From the NCBI RefSeq assembly GCF_000969985.1, contig NZ_CP009526.1:1488001-1552000 (forward strand): DNA of 64,000 nucleotides. The letters run 5' to 3'. A program made the translations under genes and the position numbers. A model generated the notes under the pieces. The model did no database searches, was not told the origin of the DNA, and worked only from the letters and a program-made list of their open reading frames with translations. This document shows positions 50,981-56,916 of this stretch, in pieces (position 1 is the first letter of the stretch; each line of letters begins with the position of its first letter). The DNA comes from Methanosarcina barkeri str. Wiesmoor. GTDB taxonomy: Archaea > Halobacteriota > Methanosarcinia > Methanosarcinales > Methanosarcinaceae.

Positions 50981-51178
50981 TTAAGCCTTTAAAAGCGTAA
51001 CATTAACTGTCCTGCTTCTCGGCCCGTCCATTTCGGCAAAAAAGATTCTCTGCCACGTCCCGAGCTCAAGCTTTCCTGCCGAAACAGGCAGGGCTTCGCT
51101 TGCTCCAAGCAGTACTGCTTTGAGATGGGAATCTGCATTGTTATCTATGCGGTCGTGACTGTAACCAGCACCAGGTTT
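50981..51178 (-). pseudogene. YjbQ/UPF0047 gene, C-terminal fragment
   Basis: The minus strand encodes the last ~65 residues of a YjbQ-family protein: GYSHDRIDNNADSHLKAVLL, GKLELGTWQRIFFAEMDGP and RSRTVNVTLLKA. A full protein has about 135 residues. Upstream of GYSHD the frame continues only into unrelated, low-quality sequence, so the N-terminal half is missing. The break is at about 51170-51180, where a plus-strand gene fragment begins. Confidence 0.8.
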
Positions 51179-51520
51179 GAGAATGAAGCACTGAAGCAGC
51201 TTAAAGAATGCATGGAGGAACTGAAAAGAGCTAAACAGGAAAGGGAGGATATCAAAAAGGAGTTTGAACCTGTTTTTGAAGAGGAAAAACAAATAGAAAA
51301 AGTGGGGAAAGTCACAGGTATGAATTATGAAAAGGTTGCAGAAAGGTATAATATTACACAAATAGCGCCTGACAGTGAAAATCTTAGAAACCATTACAAA
51401 CGACTTGAAAAGGATAAAGAGTATAGGAAAAAATGGAAAACAGCGGTATCCTCAAAAGTAGAAAAACAAGAGGCAGAACTTGGAAAGAAAGCCCTAAAAA
51501 CACTTGCAGATGAACTTTAA
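51125..51520 (+). CDS. Coiled-coil protein, probably a 5'-truncated gene
   Basis: The frame runs from ATG 51125, but its first ~14 residues (MGICIVIYAVVTVT) are antisense to the YjbQ fragment. The credible protein starts near RFENEALKQLKECMEELKRA at ~51175. The rest is highly charged and coiled-coil (KQEREDIKKEFEPVFEEEKQ), ending ENLRNHYKRLEKDKEYRKKW and a short tail. It therefore looks like the 3' part of a gene joined to yjbQ by rearrangement. A paralogous end lies in the decayed segment just downstream. Function unknown. Confidence 0.45.
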   Translation: MGICIVIYAVVTVTSTRFENEALKQLKECMEELKRAKQEREDIKKEFEPVFEEEKQIEKVGKVTGMNYEKVAERYNITQIAPDSENLRNHYKRLEKDKEYRKKWKTAVSSKVEKQEAELGKKALKTLADEL

Positions 51521-51576
51521 GATGACTGAATAAGGCAGCTTATGCCTCAACCCACTTTCCGCAATAAATTTTCGTA

Positions 51577-52065
51577 TATTCATATCTTACTGATATCGAT
51601 TTTCAATCAAACGTGGATTTATTGGACTTTTATGTAGTAGGTAAAAGCAACTATGTGGTGTATTTAGAGACAAAAAACGATATCATTCAATTTTCACCAA
51701 ATGCCACTAAAAATCCAAATTATTTGCGTCTGTTCCAAAAACGCTATCAGGAAAAATATTGATTTTCGAAAAAATACTGCGGAATGTGGGCTCAAGATAG
51801 CGAAAATTTGAAAGAGCATCATAAAAAAATGCATAATGATAAAAAGTATCAAGAAAAATACAAAAAAGCAGTAAGTAGCAAGTCTCAGAAAGAGTATGAA
51901 AAGACAGTTCAGGGAGACACTGAAAAATAATGAGCGAAGTTAGAAAACTTACCAGTATGAAAATACTGGATGAAGTGCTGTAAACGCTTTCAGGAAAAAC
52001 AGCTTCAATAATGTGCATTGACATTGATCTCGATATAAACATCAACTACGCATTTTACAATAATT
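51577..52065 (+). pseudogene. Decayed paralog of the coiled-coil gene and a following small gene
   Basis: One frame reads DFQSNVDLLDFYVVGKSNYV, then a TGA, then DSENLKEHHKKMHNDKKYQE and a tail ending QGDTEK at 51930. The part after the TGA matches the end of the preceding coiled-coil gene (DSENLRNHYKRLEKDKEYRK). An overlapping ATG at 51930 starts MSEVRKLTSMKILDEVL, which stops at once. A shifted frame then continues (TLSGKTASIMCIDIDLDINI). I read this as the remains of a two-gene unit. Confidence 0.55.
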
Positions 52066-52704
52066 AGAGAATTCTTTCAAAAGAATTATATTTTTAAGAG
52101 ATGTGCAAGCAACTATAGCGTCTTTTCTTTTCACTATGTCTTCCCAATCTGCTGTGATAAAATGAAGATCATTACTTTTTGTTAATCCTACGTGATGAGC
52201 ATCTAACATAATCTCAAAATCTGCACTATTTGATCTCTTTAAACCGGTTTCTTTCAATTTTAAACAGACATCATCATATCTTTCATTTCCACGATTAACG
52301 AAAGTAATGCATCCATCTACTAAAGAAATATTTCTTCGGTATTCTATATTAAAAGTTCGTATTATTCCCCTCAATTCATTACTTAAAATTCTTGGGTCTC
52401 GCGTAGATAATTTAGCATCCCATAGAGTTGTAATTGAAGGCTTAAGATAGTGCTTGTTTAGTATTGACATCAATTTTTTATGATCTACTGCAGCCTTTTT
52501 TCGACTTAGTTTTATAAGTATTTCATCCATGTCGCTTTTAGCAATGTTGACTTTTCCTTTACATACGTTCTTAAGCTCTCGCTTTACATTACAGCTTGAG
52601 TATTTATCGAACCTACTGTTTATAACATAAACAGATTGGAAATTCAACATATCTGTTTTGAAAACATACCCAACTAAAATATTTGTATCCAAAAAAAGTT
52701 CCAT
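52042..52704 (-). CDS. PIN-domain protein, probable nuclease of a two-gene module
   Basis: The 220-residue protein begins MELFLDTNILVGYVFKTDM, with the first acidic PIN residue in FLDTN. The later acidic motifs lie in ADFEIMLDAHHVG and HFITADWEDIVKR. The PIN fold is a magnesium-dependent RNase in VapC toxins and in RNA-processing enzymes. At 220 residues it is longer than a typical VapC (~130), with an inserted helical region (residues ~50-130). It starts 3 bases after the stop of the 297-residue gene and shares its ribosome-binding site region (GGTG), so the pair is co-translated. This suggests a toxin-antitoxin or defence pair, but neither role is proven. Confidence 0.75.
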   Translation of the reverse strand: MELFLDTNILVGYVFKTDMLNFQSVYVINSRFDKYSSCNVKRELKNVCKGKVNIAKSDMDEILIKLSRKKAAVDHKKLMSILNKHYLKPSITTLWDAKLSTRDPRILSNELRGIIRTFNIEYRRNISLVDGCITFVNRGNERYDDVCLKLKETGLKRSNSADFEIMLDAHHVGLTKSNDLHFITADWEDIVKRKDAIVACTSLKNIILLKEFSNYCKMRS

Positions 52705-52707
52705 TAT

Positions 52708-53601
52708 TTATACACCTGAGTTGGGAATGTTGTAGATGTCTTGCATTAAGTATTTAACAAATTCTTTGTTGTCTTCCGAAGGGGTATAATATGTGTCTAA
52801 TACTTTATTTCTTATATTTTCAATAGTTTCTTCTGCATCGTTGAGTTCGCCTTTATATGCTGATTTCCACTGACGTATTACATGCTCAGGAATATTTTGA
52901 TTGCAGTCAATTCTTACCCGCTTTGGATATATTTCCCAAAATATGTCACGAAGCTGTCTTACTAAGTTTAATTTTATAACATCAGGAGCATAATCTAACA
53001 CAACCCGAGTGGTATCATCCCAATCAAAGTGTATAGAAGCAATCTCGGGAAAAGAATCAATTGGAAATTCAGAAAGTAGCTCATCAAGTTTTATGGTAAT
53101 ATCATCTTTTAAACTTTCAGTTACATGAGATACATTTTTATTAGTTATGAGTAGGTATTCCTGAAATAATGTATTAAATTTATATGGGGAATTAATGTCA
53201 TACGACTCTTTCTTAGCTAAATCTCCATATCCTTCTTTAAAGCCGTACTGATCATGCAAAATACTTATTGTTTTTAAGATAATGTCTTGTTCCCTGACTG
53301 CTACCTTTCCACTAAAATCTACTGTTATTGTTGGTGGATATATAAGTTCGCCAAGTATGCAATTTTCAGAAAACGGATATGGAAGTACCTGATCTAGTAA
53401 TCTCTCTTCAGTATAAAAACCATATTTGTACCAATAACCTGGCAATTTTATGTCTACGCCTTGTTTTTGTAGTCTAGAGTCAAGCAGGTTCATTAATTTA
53501 CAAAAGTGATACCTATTCATGACTTCTTTTCGATAAGGGTTAAAGGCTTTTATGAGCCTATCAACTGCGTACCCAAGCAATTGATTTTTCTCCTCAACCA
53601 T
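52708..53601 (-). CDS. Unknown protein, partner of the PIN-domain gene
   Basis: I do not recognise the family. The 297-residue protein has an N-terminal helical region with RYHFCKLMNLLDSRLQKQG and KLPGYWYKYGFYTEERLLD. That pattern faintly recalls winged-helix or Panacea-type antitoxin domains, where an aromatic-Lys-Tyr-Gly motif is common. A middle helical region and the charged end (FVKYLMQDIYNIPNSGV) follow. There is no signal peptide or membrane segment. It is the first gene of the unit with the PIN gene. No strong ribosome-binding site precedes ATG 53601. Upstream is the GC-rich hairpin segment. Confidence 0.7.
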   Translation of the reverse strand: MVEEKNQLLGYAVDRLIKAFNPYRKEVMNRYHFCKLMNLLDSRLQKQGVDIKLPGYWYKYGFYTEERLLDQVLPYPFSENCILGELIYPPTITVDFSGKVAVREQDIILKTISILHDQYGFKEGYGDLAKKESYDINSPYKFNTLFQEYLLITNKNVSHVTESLKDDITIKLDELLSEFPIDSFPEIASIHFDWDDTTRVVLDYAPDVIKLNLVRQLRDIFWEIYPKRVRIDCNQNIPEHVIRQWKSAYKGELNDAEETIENIRNKVLDTYYTPSEDNKEFVKYLMQDIYNIPNSGV

Positions 53602-53764
53602 TAGTTGGTTATAGGAATACCTTAATCAAAACCTTTTCGATTTAAAAAATTAATTTGTTTTTATTAAAGACTCCGTATTTAATTTGCGTTATCACTTGAG
53701 TACAAAATCGTTGACATAGCACGGACAGGCAAGAAGAATGAGAGAACAAAGCAAAAGAAGAAAT

Positions 53765-54010
53765 ATCAGCTCAGCGGTAGTGCGGCTTAGCACCGCCACC
53801 AAATAATTTAAGAAAAGTCAGAAGGTGGAGGCGGGCGGGAGCGGGTGAATACACGCCCTGCCGCCCTCTATTTGTTAGGGCTTAAGCCCTCTTGCGCCGT
53901 GCTTTAGGCGCGTCGCAATTCACCTGACAAACACAAAAGGAGGATATGCCACACCACACCAAACAGACAAGGCATAGCCGGCTTAAGGGTTAAAGCCCCC
54001 GCCGGTTGGT
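53765..54010. ncRNA. Candidate structured RNA: GC-rich run of hairpins
   Basis: In an AT-rich genome this ~245-bp stretch is strikingly GC-rich and holds at least five successive inverted repeats. They are GCG..GTGC-GGCTTA-GCAC-CGC (53774-53796), a 14-bp imperfect stem with AATA loop (53834-53865), the perfect palindrome AGGGCTTAAGCCCT (53877-53890), GCGCC/GGCGC (53894-53911), and CCGGC/GCCGG enclosing GCTT/AAGC (53978-54005). CCGCCACC (53793) can also pair with GGTGGAGGCGG (53824). GC-rich hairpins in an AT-rich archaeon usually mark RNA genes. It matches no tRNA, rRNA, RNase P or SRP RNA that I can recognise. Strand is undetermined. Confidence 0.45.
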
Positions 54011-54039
54011 TGCGGTTAATATCCCTCTTCCTCTACAAG

Positions 54040-54148
54040 CTGTCCGACAATTACTTTCGGTAATAAAAGAATTCCTTCTTTTTTGATTTAAGGCCTTATT
54101 TGCTTTCTTTTTAGCACCTTTTTATTACTACCAATAATTGTTGGACAG
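54040..54148. mobile_element. MITE with ~30-bp terminal inverted repeats
   Basis: The left end CTGTCCGACAATTACTTTCG and the inverted right end CTGTCCAACAATTATTGGTA continue in parallel to TAATAAAA, giving about 30 bp of imperfect terminal repeats on a 109-bp non-coding element. It differs from the MITEs at 5661 and 7986. No matching transposase is in the window. Confidence 0.7.
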
Positions 54149-54330
54149 CCTGTAAAGAAGGGAGAATTCGTGACCCTCTGCGCTCCCGTTGTAATAAAGC
54201 TCAGGAAATATGAGAACCTAAAAATAGTACTCAGGAGGGTAGTTTTTCCAACCTGATCATAAAAGACAGATGTACTTGCTTGCCTGGTTAGATCAATAAC
54301 CCTCAAGATCTTACTACAATTTACTCTGTT

Positions 54331-56916
54331 TTATCTTTTCTTACTTCTACACAGAAAAATACAGAATAGACATACAACGCTGCTGATTATACTAAATCCA
54401 GGAATATTTTTACTTTCTTCGGCTATCTTATTTTCAACAGTGCTTGCAATATTGCTTGCGTTACTGCTTGTACTACTAATTGCGTTACTGCCTTCATTAC
54501 TGCCTGCGTTACGGCCTGTAGTATTATTTGTGGCTTTTTGAGCAGATTCTGCAGCTATTGTTTTGCCTTCGTCTTTTGTACCTGTTATTGCGAAGGAAGA
54601 GTAGCCAGGTACGTTTGCTGTGAAATGCAAGAACTGATCATCTTCACCTGTTAGACTTACTGGCAGTTCTATCCATTCTTTTTTCTCATCATCGTACCAG
54701 TCAAGTATAATTGAGGACTTGTTTATGTTACTCTCATCTACCCATGAAGTATTAACTTTAAAATTGACAGTTGGACTCTCAATATTCTTTGAGGTGCCAT
54801 AACCACCGTTTCCAACCCATATATTGAATGATTTGTAGACGATACCTTCAGGAAGCTCGGAAACCAGGCTCGACTTATTTTTCAGTTCCTCTACTATTGT
54901 AGTGGTCTTTCCTACGGTTTTTGTTGATCTGAATGTTATCGATTCAACACAGGTTGCATTATTTATAAAATTAAAATTCACATCATTTCCACTGGCAATA
55001 AAGGTCTGTACAGTCTCTTTTACCTGGACGTTCTTCGCTGGTTCAGGGGATCCACCAACGCCACCACTGCTACTTCCACTCTTGTGGCTGTGTCCTCCAC
55101 TACTGCTACCACTGCTACTGTCGCTGTCACTATCACTGCTACTATCGCTATCACTGCTACTATCAATTTCGTTGTTACTGTCACTGCTGCTAATAGTGTC
55201 GCTGTCACTGTTACTGTTGCTTTCGTTATTACTATCGCTTTCGCTGTTGCTATCACTTTCACTAATAGTGTCACTGTTATTGTCGCTGGAATTGCTTTCT
55301 TCCAGTACGTTTATTGTACTGATTGTTGAGGCTGTTTTGTTTTCATTAACTACTGTCAGGTTGACTTCATAGTTTCCAGAAGAAGAATAAGTGTGCATTG
55401 GATTTTGCTCGGTTGAGGTTTCTCCATCTCCAAAGTTCCAGTACCATTCGTTTGCATTTTGCGATAGATCTGTAAATTGCACAGAGAGAGGTGCATAGCC
55501 GCTCGTGGTATCTGCATCAAAGTTCGCTACAGGAAGTATTTCTTCTTGATCCGGCTCTTCCTCTACAGTTATACTTAGAGATTTTGATCTCGAGCCATTT
55601 TCATTATTTACGGTCAGGACAACAGTATAGCTTCCGGCTGATACATAGGTATAAGCTGGGTTTTGCTCGGTTGAGGTAGTTCCATCTCCAAAATTCCAGT
55701 TCCATTCGTTTGCATTTTGCGATCGATCTGTAAATTGCACAGAAAGTGGAGCAGAGCCACTCGTAGTATCTGCATCAAAGTTAGCTACAGGAATGATTTT
55801 TTCTTGTTCCGGTTCTTTTTCTACATTTATACTTAGAGATTTAGAACTCGAGCCATTTTCATTATTTGCGGTCAGGACAACTTTATAAGTTCCAGCTGAA
55901 ACATAGGTATGCGCTGGATTCTGCTCTGTTGAGGTAGCTCCGTCTCCAAAGTTCCAATTCCATTCGTTTGCATTCTGCGATCGATCTGTAAATTGCACAG
56001 AAAGTGGAGCAGAGCCACTGACAATGTCTGTATTAAAATTTGCAGTAGGAAAAACTTTTTCTGGAGTTGGTTCGCTCTGAACAATTACTTTTTGAGTCTT
56101 TGAGTTTGAGCCCTTTTCATTTTTTACAGTCAAGACAACGTTATAGTTTCCAGCTTCAGAGTATGTATGCTTTGGGTTTTTCTCTGCTGAAGTACTTCTG
56201 TCTCCAAAACTCCAGGACCAGGAAGTTGCATCTGTACTTTTGTCAGTAAATACTACGCTTAGTGGGGCTTTTCCAGAGGTAGGCGACATAGAGAATGCAG
56301 CAACCGGTGAGTTTACATCGTTACTTGTGTCATCGTTACCTGTGTCATCGTTACCTGTGTCATCGTTACCTGTGTCATCGTTACCTGTGTCATCGTTACC
56401 TGTGTCATCGTTACCTGTATCGTCGCTTCCACCAGAGTCCCATCTAGCATAGTACGGCAATCCTTCTTTATACACGCCACTAACACTTTCTGTTGTAACT
56501 GTTTTTGTATCATAAGATGTGTCTATAAATTGTCCATTTCCTATGTATATTCCAACATGACTGACAAGCCAGTAATTTCTGTTATTTTTAGTAATGTCTT
56601 TTTTCCAAAAAATTACATCTCCAGGCGTGGGAGAAGTTGTAGTAACATAATATGCATTTTTTTTCATATTAGGCACGGTTTGGAATACAATGTCTTTAGC
56701 TCCGGCTTGCTTGTATACTTGATACACTAAGTGAGAGCAATCAATGCCAGATCGGCTGTTGCCACCATGTACGGATTTAACTCCAATCCAGCTTTTTGCG
56801 GCTGCGACTACTGTAGATTCAGATGTTCCTGCAGGAGCAGCTGATACAAGGGGTATAAATGCTATTAAGATAGCTACAAGGAGTATGGCCATTAATTGAT
56901 GTTTATTCATCTTCAT
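54331..56916 (-). CDS. Secreted NlpC/P60 hydrolase with PKD repeats and a PGF-CTERM anchor
   Basis: The 861-residue protein has a signal peptide (LMAILLVAILIAFIPLVSAA). An NlpC/P60 domain (~30-160) follows, with the nucleophile Cys60 in GIDCSHLVYQVYKQAG and His120 in VSHVGIYIGNGQFID. Then come a (DDTGN)7 spacer, four PKD domains (~202-545, each with W.W.FGD and NP.HTY), a Ser/Asn/Asp-rich linker, a PGF-pre-PGF-type domain (~635-800) and a C-terminal PGF-CTERM signal (PGFSIISSVVCLFCIFLCRS). The last implies processing by archaeosortase and lipid anchoring on the surface. NlpC/P60 enzymes cut peptide bonds of bacterial peptidoglycan, which this archaeon lacks, so an outward antibacterial or symbiotic role is possible. 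Confidence 0.92.
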   Translation of the reverse strand: MKMNKHQLMAILLVAILIAFIPLVSAAPAGTSESTVVAAAKSWIGVKSVHGGNSRSGIDCSHLVYQVYKQAGAKDIVFQTVPNMKKNAYYVTTTSPTPGDVIFWKKDITKNNRNYWLVSHVGIYIGNGQFIDTSYDTKTVTTESVSGVYKEGLPYYARWDSGGSDDTGNDDTGNDDTGNDDTGNDDTGNDDTGNDDTSNDVNSPVAAFSMSPTSGKAPLSVVFTDKSTDATSWSWSFGDRSTSAEKNPKHTYSEAGNYNVVLTVKNEKGSNSKTQKVIVQSEPTPEKVFPTANFNTDIVSGSAPLSVQFTDRSQNANEWNWNFGDGATSTEQNPAHTYVSAGTYKVVLTANNENGSSSKSLSINVEKEPEQEKIIPVANFDADTTSGSAPLSVQFTDRSQNANEWNWNFGDGTTSTEQNPAYTYVSAGSYTVVLTVNNENGSRSKSLSITVEEEPDQEEILPVANFDADTTSGYAPLSVQFTDLSQNANEWYWNFGDGETSTEQNPMHTYSSSGNYEVNLTVVNENKTASTISTINVLEESNSSDNNSDTISESDSNSESDSNNESNSNSDSDTISSSDSNNEIDSSSDSDSSSDSDSDSSSGSSSGGHSHKSGSSSGGVGGSPEPAKNVQVKETVQTFIASGNDVNFNFINNATCVESITFRSTKTVGKTTTIVEELKNKSSLVSELPEGIVYKSFNIWVGNGGYGTSKNIESPTVNFKVNTSWVDESNINKSSIILDWYDDEKKEWIELPVSLTGEDDQFLHFTANVPGYSSFAITGTKDEGKTIAAESAQKATNNTTGRNAGSNEGSNAISSTSSNASNIASTVENKIAEESKNIPGFSIISSVVCLFCIFLCRSKKR
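56314..56423 (-). repeat. 15-bp repeat encoding DDTGN
   Basis: Seven in-frame copies of a 15-bp unit (TCATCGTTACCTGTG on the plus strand) encode the acidic spacer after the NlpC/P60 domain. Copy number is likely to vary. Confidence 0.9.

Follow-up and report, generated by a model that had tools for sequence, protein, structure and literature searches.

A GC-rich hairpin domain on strain-specific DNA of Methanosarcina barkeri str. Wiesmoor is a candidate structured RNA gene of no recognised family

HEARO (RF02033) is the guide RNA of IscB. The M. barkeri locus described here recalls it in that both would be structured RNAs of ∼200–250 nt with a purine-rich linker and a ribosome-binding site before an ATG; that HEARO is itself linked with mobile DNA in related archaea counts as a further likeness. 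In contrast to HEARO, our locus gives no Rfam match, lies in a genome without IscB, and has hairpins of other sequence and order. With type III toxin–antitoxin RNAs (ToxI-like) it shares a structured RNA adjoining a presumed RNase gene, but here the RNase is PIN-like by motif only, tandem repeats are lacking, the directions are opposite, and the element is missing beside relatives of the gene pair. RNA genes are often richer in G and C, and fold better, than their noncoding surroundings. In bacteria, an intergenic region that is both long and GC-rich is a published indicator of structured RNA (PMC8632094). The present intergenic locus resembles the candidates found in this way in its length, its GC richness and its stable hairpins, set in a genome of AT-rich noncoding DNA; those candidates, however, rest on comparative analysis of homologues, whereas no homologue was found here. 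The following features of the locus are referred to below.

51173–54192, no strand: strain-specific segment (relatives match on the left as far as 51172 and on the right from 54193 onwards)
53676–53683, just upstream of the leader: possible TATA-like box TATTTAAT
53703–53765, + strand: A- and G-rich leader without strong structure, with the inferred RNA start (from sequence and AT skew)
53765–54016, + strand: GC-rich structured domain, candidate RNA gene (from GC rank and MFE z)
53937–53943, + strand: AAGGAGG, Shine–Dalgarno-like, in a linker predicted to be single-stranded
54034–54198, no strand: dispersed MITE-like repeat with inverted ends CTGTCCGACAATTA, at the right edge of the strain-specific segment

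Positions 53765–54016 of the window (the whole 64,000-nt stretch of DNA that was analysed) are noncoding, and no long open frame was found to cross them. They sit within a 729-base gap (53602–54330) between the start of a leftward PIN-like operon and the end of a leftward NlpC/P60-PKD gene. Their GC content is 0.55 (exactly 0.553 over 53765–54010) compared with a whole-window mean of 0.395, and only 0.16% of equal-size (246-nt) windows across the whole window reach the value of 53765–54010, the other top ones lying inside long ORFs. Noncoding DNA was represented by 450 ORF-free regions of at least 246 nt from 1.26 Mb, approximately a quarter of the same genome. This sampled DNA has a mean GC of 0.318 (sd 0.061), so that 53765–54010 lies ∼3.9 sd above it and ranks third among the 450 regions; only the 16S and 23S rRNA genes supply higher values, from two stretches in all. 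The first-pass annotation had described a GC content far above the surroundings and five or more adjacent inverted repeats. Both descriptions hold; the inverted repeats or hairpins number at least six (53769–53791, 53823–53873, 53877–53890, 53892–53918, 53945–53976 and 53977–54006).

On the + strand, 53760–54025 folds with an MFE of −100.3 kcal/mol, compared with −83.9 kcal/mol for dinucleotide shuffles (z −3.4; 0 of 200 shuffles as good), while the − strand reached z −2.4 in this first shuffle set and −2.0 to −2.5 across runs. A second shuffle set gave z −3.7 (+) versus −2.0 (−), and the core alone (53816–54010) −3.2 (+) versus −0.8 (−). The + strand is therefore the better-folding strand, and it is divergent from the leftward PIN-like genes. 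As in a structured RNA gene, + strand folding exceeds the expectation from composition. Such a z is seldom reached in the window, yet a small number of other sites, and one GC-rich coding stretch, also lie near −3, so stability alone is no proof of function. An excess of A in the predicted loops, expected as a sign of RNA, was not above shuffles. The predicted fold comprises the following elements.

53769–53791, + strand: 5′ hairpin (pair probabilities 0.61–0.69)
53792–54016, + strand: P0, possible closing helix 53792–53801/54007–54016, nine of 10 pairs (pair probability 0.62)
53817–53928, + strand: P1, helix 53817–53821/53924–53928, which holds hairpins P2, P3 and P4 (pair probability 0.62)
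53823–53873, + strand: P2 (pair probabilities 0.81–0.86)
53877–53890, + strand: P3 (pair probability 0.96)
53892–53918, + strand: P4 (pair probabilities 0.89–0.93)
53945–53976, + strand: P5, hairpin with a 20-nt C/A-rich loop ACACCACACCAAACAGACAA, containing the ATG of a 15-codon frame (pair probability 0.65)
53977–54006, + strand: P6, hairpin (pair probability 0.92–0.93)

Best supported are P2, P3, P4 and P6, with P1, P5 and P0 near 0.6. When 53816–53962 was folded alone, the MFE structure paired P2 somewhat differently and the centroid retained P1–P4. P0 is predicted at the edge of the GC-rich stretch and encloses everything 3′ of the 5′ hairpin; a flank match as good as P0 arose in 16 of 500 flank shuffles (∼3%). 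The RNA may thus form one compact domain in which P0 closes around the P1–P4 unit, the AAGGAGG linker and then P5 and P6. Four features lead us to prefer a structured RNA gene carried by acquired DNA: its GC content, its folding, its better fold on one strand, and a domain whose end coincides with that of the GC-rich stretch. Specifically, 53765–54016 would be a rightward-transcribed orphan RNA gene and no part of the PIN-like pair, a tentative reading with somewhat less than an even chance of being right. Composition and folding thus make the earlier suggestion of a new structured RNA the best single reading, although it found no backing in conservation among the relatives searched.

We infer that transcription would start in or beside the AT-rich DNA near 53640–53690 and run rightward, giving putative boundaries for an orphan structured RNA of ∼250–330 nt. 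The candidate promoter DNA upstream of the RNA consists of A/T-rich sequence only. Over 53700–54016 the AT skew is 0.29, an absolute value reached by ∼4.5% of sampled windows.

Towards the 3′ end, the AGGAGG (53938–53943) and the 15-codon frame behind it (53946–53993) that had been reported earlier are indeed present, the frame translating as MPHHTKQTRHSRLKG followed by a stop. Only 2 nt separate AGGAGG from the ATG at 53946, and the ATG falls within the predicted stem P5; the frame therefore has a poor translation start. AAGGAGG, which can alternatively pair with 54019–54029, would rather serve as a single-stranded linker than as a working translation start in the predicted fold. Structured RNAs commonly precede a ribosome-binding site, and AAGGAGG plus ATG at 53937–53948 fit this arrangement. 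The stretch could accordingly be a leader or cis-regulatory RNA, either what is left of the leader of a rightward gene that has lost its body or, if read on the − strand, the long 5′ leader belonging to the PIN-like operon. We consider this improbable. A rightward leader is at odds not only with the spacing and the position of the ATG, but also with a predicted structure that continues through the short frame to 54016 and with a stop after 15 codons; a leader of the PIN-like operon is at odds with A/T-rich promoter-like DNA (53640–53660) between the hairpins and the gene start, with the weaker folding of the − strand, and with relatives of the pair that lack the element.

At gathering thresholds Rfam gave no match in the window, and inside 53765–54016 none appeared even at E up to 10; what was listed at E up to 10 lies outside, on the MITE-like hairpin and at 53632. 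Ribosomal RNA, tRNA, RNase P, SRP, group I and II introns and the other Rfam families were rejected in the absence of an Rfam match, which also excludes an rDNA fragment, a concern raised at the outset. A D-arm-like string, AGCTCAGCGGTAGTGC, lies near 53768, where ARAGORN gives no tRNA. The candidate is thus a plausible, though unproven, RNA gene of no recognised family.

HEARO was suspected because of the AAAAGGAGG-ATG layout, and a structured RNA ending in ACAAAAGGAGG ahead of an ATG does recall it. By this account the stretch would be a guide RNA of IscB, or of a similar transposon nuclease, whose protein was lost, and the abundance of IscB in relatives could be cited in its favour. In positive controls, RF02033 scored 95–162 bits beside IscB in all eight relative loci examined, so its silence at 53765–54016 up to E 10 is meaningful; likewise, the IscB domain PF14239, above its curated cut-off in 18 of 112 family genomes, had no match in this genome. 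HEARO is excluded, and with it the earlier proposal of an RNA guide of that kind; nuclease-associated RNAs without an Rfam model are outside the reach of this test, and a guide of a lost nuclease of either sort has in our estimate a negligible probability. As a separate observation, some relatives are rich in IscB accompanied by HEARO RNA (loci L010–L039), with 28 matches in one genome (G081), 13 in another (G097) and none in this one.

The element occurs once in the genome. By blastn, no relative was found in 112 same-family genomes; 238 class genomes gave only scraps of 23–36 bases, mostly of low complexity, and phages, plasmids and E. coli gave only low-complexity or chance scraps. R1, a covariance model built from the single sequence, found only itself in 394 phylum genomes, while 399 genomes from a bacterial phylum and 10 other genomes yielded no credible match; these searches (394 + 10 + 399 genomes) together returned two matches with per-genome E of 0.03–0.07, fewer than expected by chance. 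Exact patterns were scanned in 84,980 species, where the specific pattern had 0 matches and a 17-mer had 34, compared with a chance estimate of 30, none of them fitting R1; viral-contig pattern scans gave two matches, neither of which fits R1. Diverged members escape both a one-sequence model and exact patterns, and 'orphan' therefore means orphan at such sensitivity.

The first-pass annotation placed the stretch directly upstream of a PIN module and proposed that it might be the module's RNA component. Its position was given correctly: a leftward two-gene operon encodes a 297-aa protein (52708–53601) and a PIN-like 220-aa protein (52042–52704), and the first gene starts at 53601, 163 bp from the stretch, and reads leftward. 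This proximity speaks for an RNA partner of the pair, be it a type III-like antitoxin or a guide. Homologues of the 297-aa protein with 43% identity occur in two genomes (G031 and G111, loci L042 and L043), each beside a PIN-like gene, and distant ones with 22–27% identity in eight more. Beside these relatives, two close and eight distant in ten other genomes, R1 gave no match, within the limited sensitivity of a one-sequence model, and AT-rich DNA (GC 0.34–0.36) lies upstream in both close pairs. To the question of whether the element travels with the PIN-like pair, proposed earlier as a check, the answer is therefore that it does not. Likeness to a type III toxin–antitoxin RNA breaks down further in that no tandem repeats or direct-repeat array were found in the stretch, which also folds better on the strand that does not carry the genes. 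A search for guide-like use of the 20-nt P5 loop gave no near-perfect second site: allowing up to three mismatches, the genome has a single other site, at three mismatches. Any link to the PIN-like pair is unlikely, and a role as its antitoxin or guide is very improbable.

The name 'PIN' itself refers to a motif pattern only (LFLDxNxLxGY ... DAHHVGL ... ITxDxxDI). Pfam and PADLOC gave nothing significant on the gene pair, the 297-aa protein being of no known family, and the structure models are of low confidence (mean pLDDT 45 and 37), too low to be of use; the two genes are possibly an uncharacterised two-gene system. Relatives of the 297-aa protein were seen in 10 of 394 phylum genomes, this genome included, and distant ones on haloarchaeal plasmids.

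The candidate shares its 3-kb segment (51173–54192) with a 240-bp dispersed repeat, the PIN-like pair and the MITE-like repeat. In six relatives (L054–L057, L062 and L063) the flanks lie 350–790 bp apart and the segment is absent at the site, the DNA between them being the 5′ part of a UPF0047 gene and intergenic DNA; another relative (L058) carries 4.8 kb of other DNA in the gap, with a transposase-like ORF. In three relatives the match of the right flank begins 28–137 bases further on. The UPF0047 gene (PF01894 in L058), intact in relatives, is cut at 51172 by the segment. Conserved flanks with other DNA between them in relatives therefore mark 51173–54192 as strain-specific. The remnant of the UPF0047 gene (50981–51394, − strand) is its C-terminal part only, fused to unrelated codons.

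This setting keeps alive the concern, raised at the outset, of a decayed insertion element, and brings in the main rival to an RNA gene, namely foreign GC-rich DNA or a decayed mobile-element end, whose hairpins act or once acted as DNA and which has no present function as RNA. We rate this as a serious possibility, close behind the structured RNA gene. The segment consists partly of dispersed repeats and ends in one, the stretch lies next to the MITE-like element (∼10 long copies in the genome, plus many short ones of its right part), folding is fairly good on both strands, and conservation was not found anywhere searched. A mobile-element end, however, usually has a second copy, and none exists in the genome or was found in relatives; moreover, the + strand folds better than the − strand, and the hairpins make one closed predicted domain.

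Taken as a structured RNA gene, the candidate would have been brought in with the strain-specific segment, and its product would probably be free-standing and protein-bound, apart from the PIN-like pair. Such an RNA would most likely belong to a mobile element as its RNA component, the element's protein genes going unrecognised here. The wider proposal, a new class of accessory structured RNA on strain-specific methanogen mobile DNA that works with an unrecognised protein, strikes us as rather unlikely. On the whole, the first-pass interpretation is supported in part, though mostly not. If transcribed, the stretch would be a large structured RNA of nearly rRNA-level GC, with no known relatives, in an archaeal genome with AT-rich noncoding DNA, and a sign that strain-specific segments of methanogens hold RNA genes invisible to homology searches; should it be no more than foreign DNA, it illustrates how acquired GC-rich fragments imitate RNA genes.

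Two neighbours of the element may be recorded. The 240-bp dispersed repeat (51549–51790) has many copies in the genome at ∼80–95% identity and is present in most of the genus. To the right, the leftward gene at 54331–56916 (− strand) encodes a large NlpC/P60 protein, probably of the cell surface, in which four PKD repeats and serine/aspartate-rich tracts occur.
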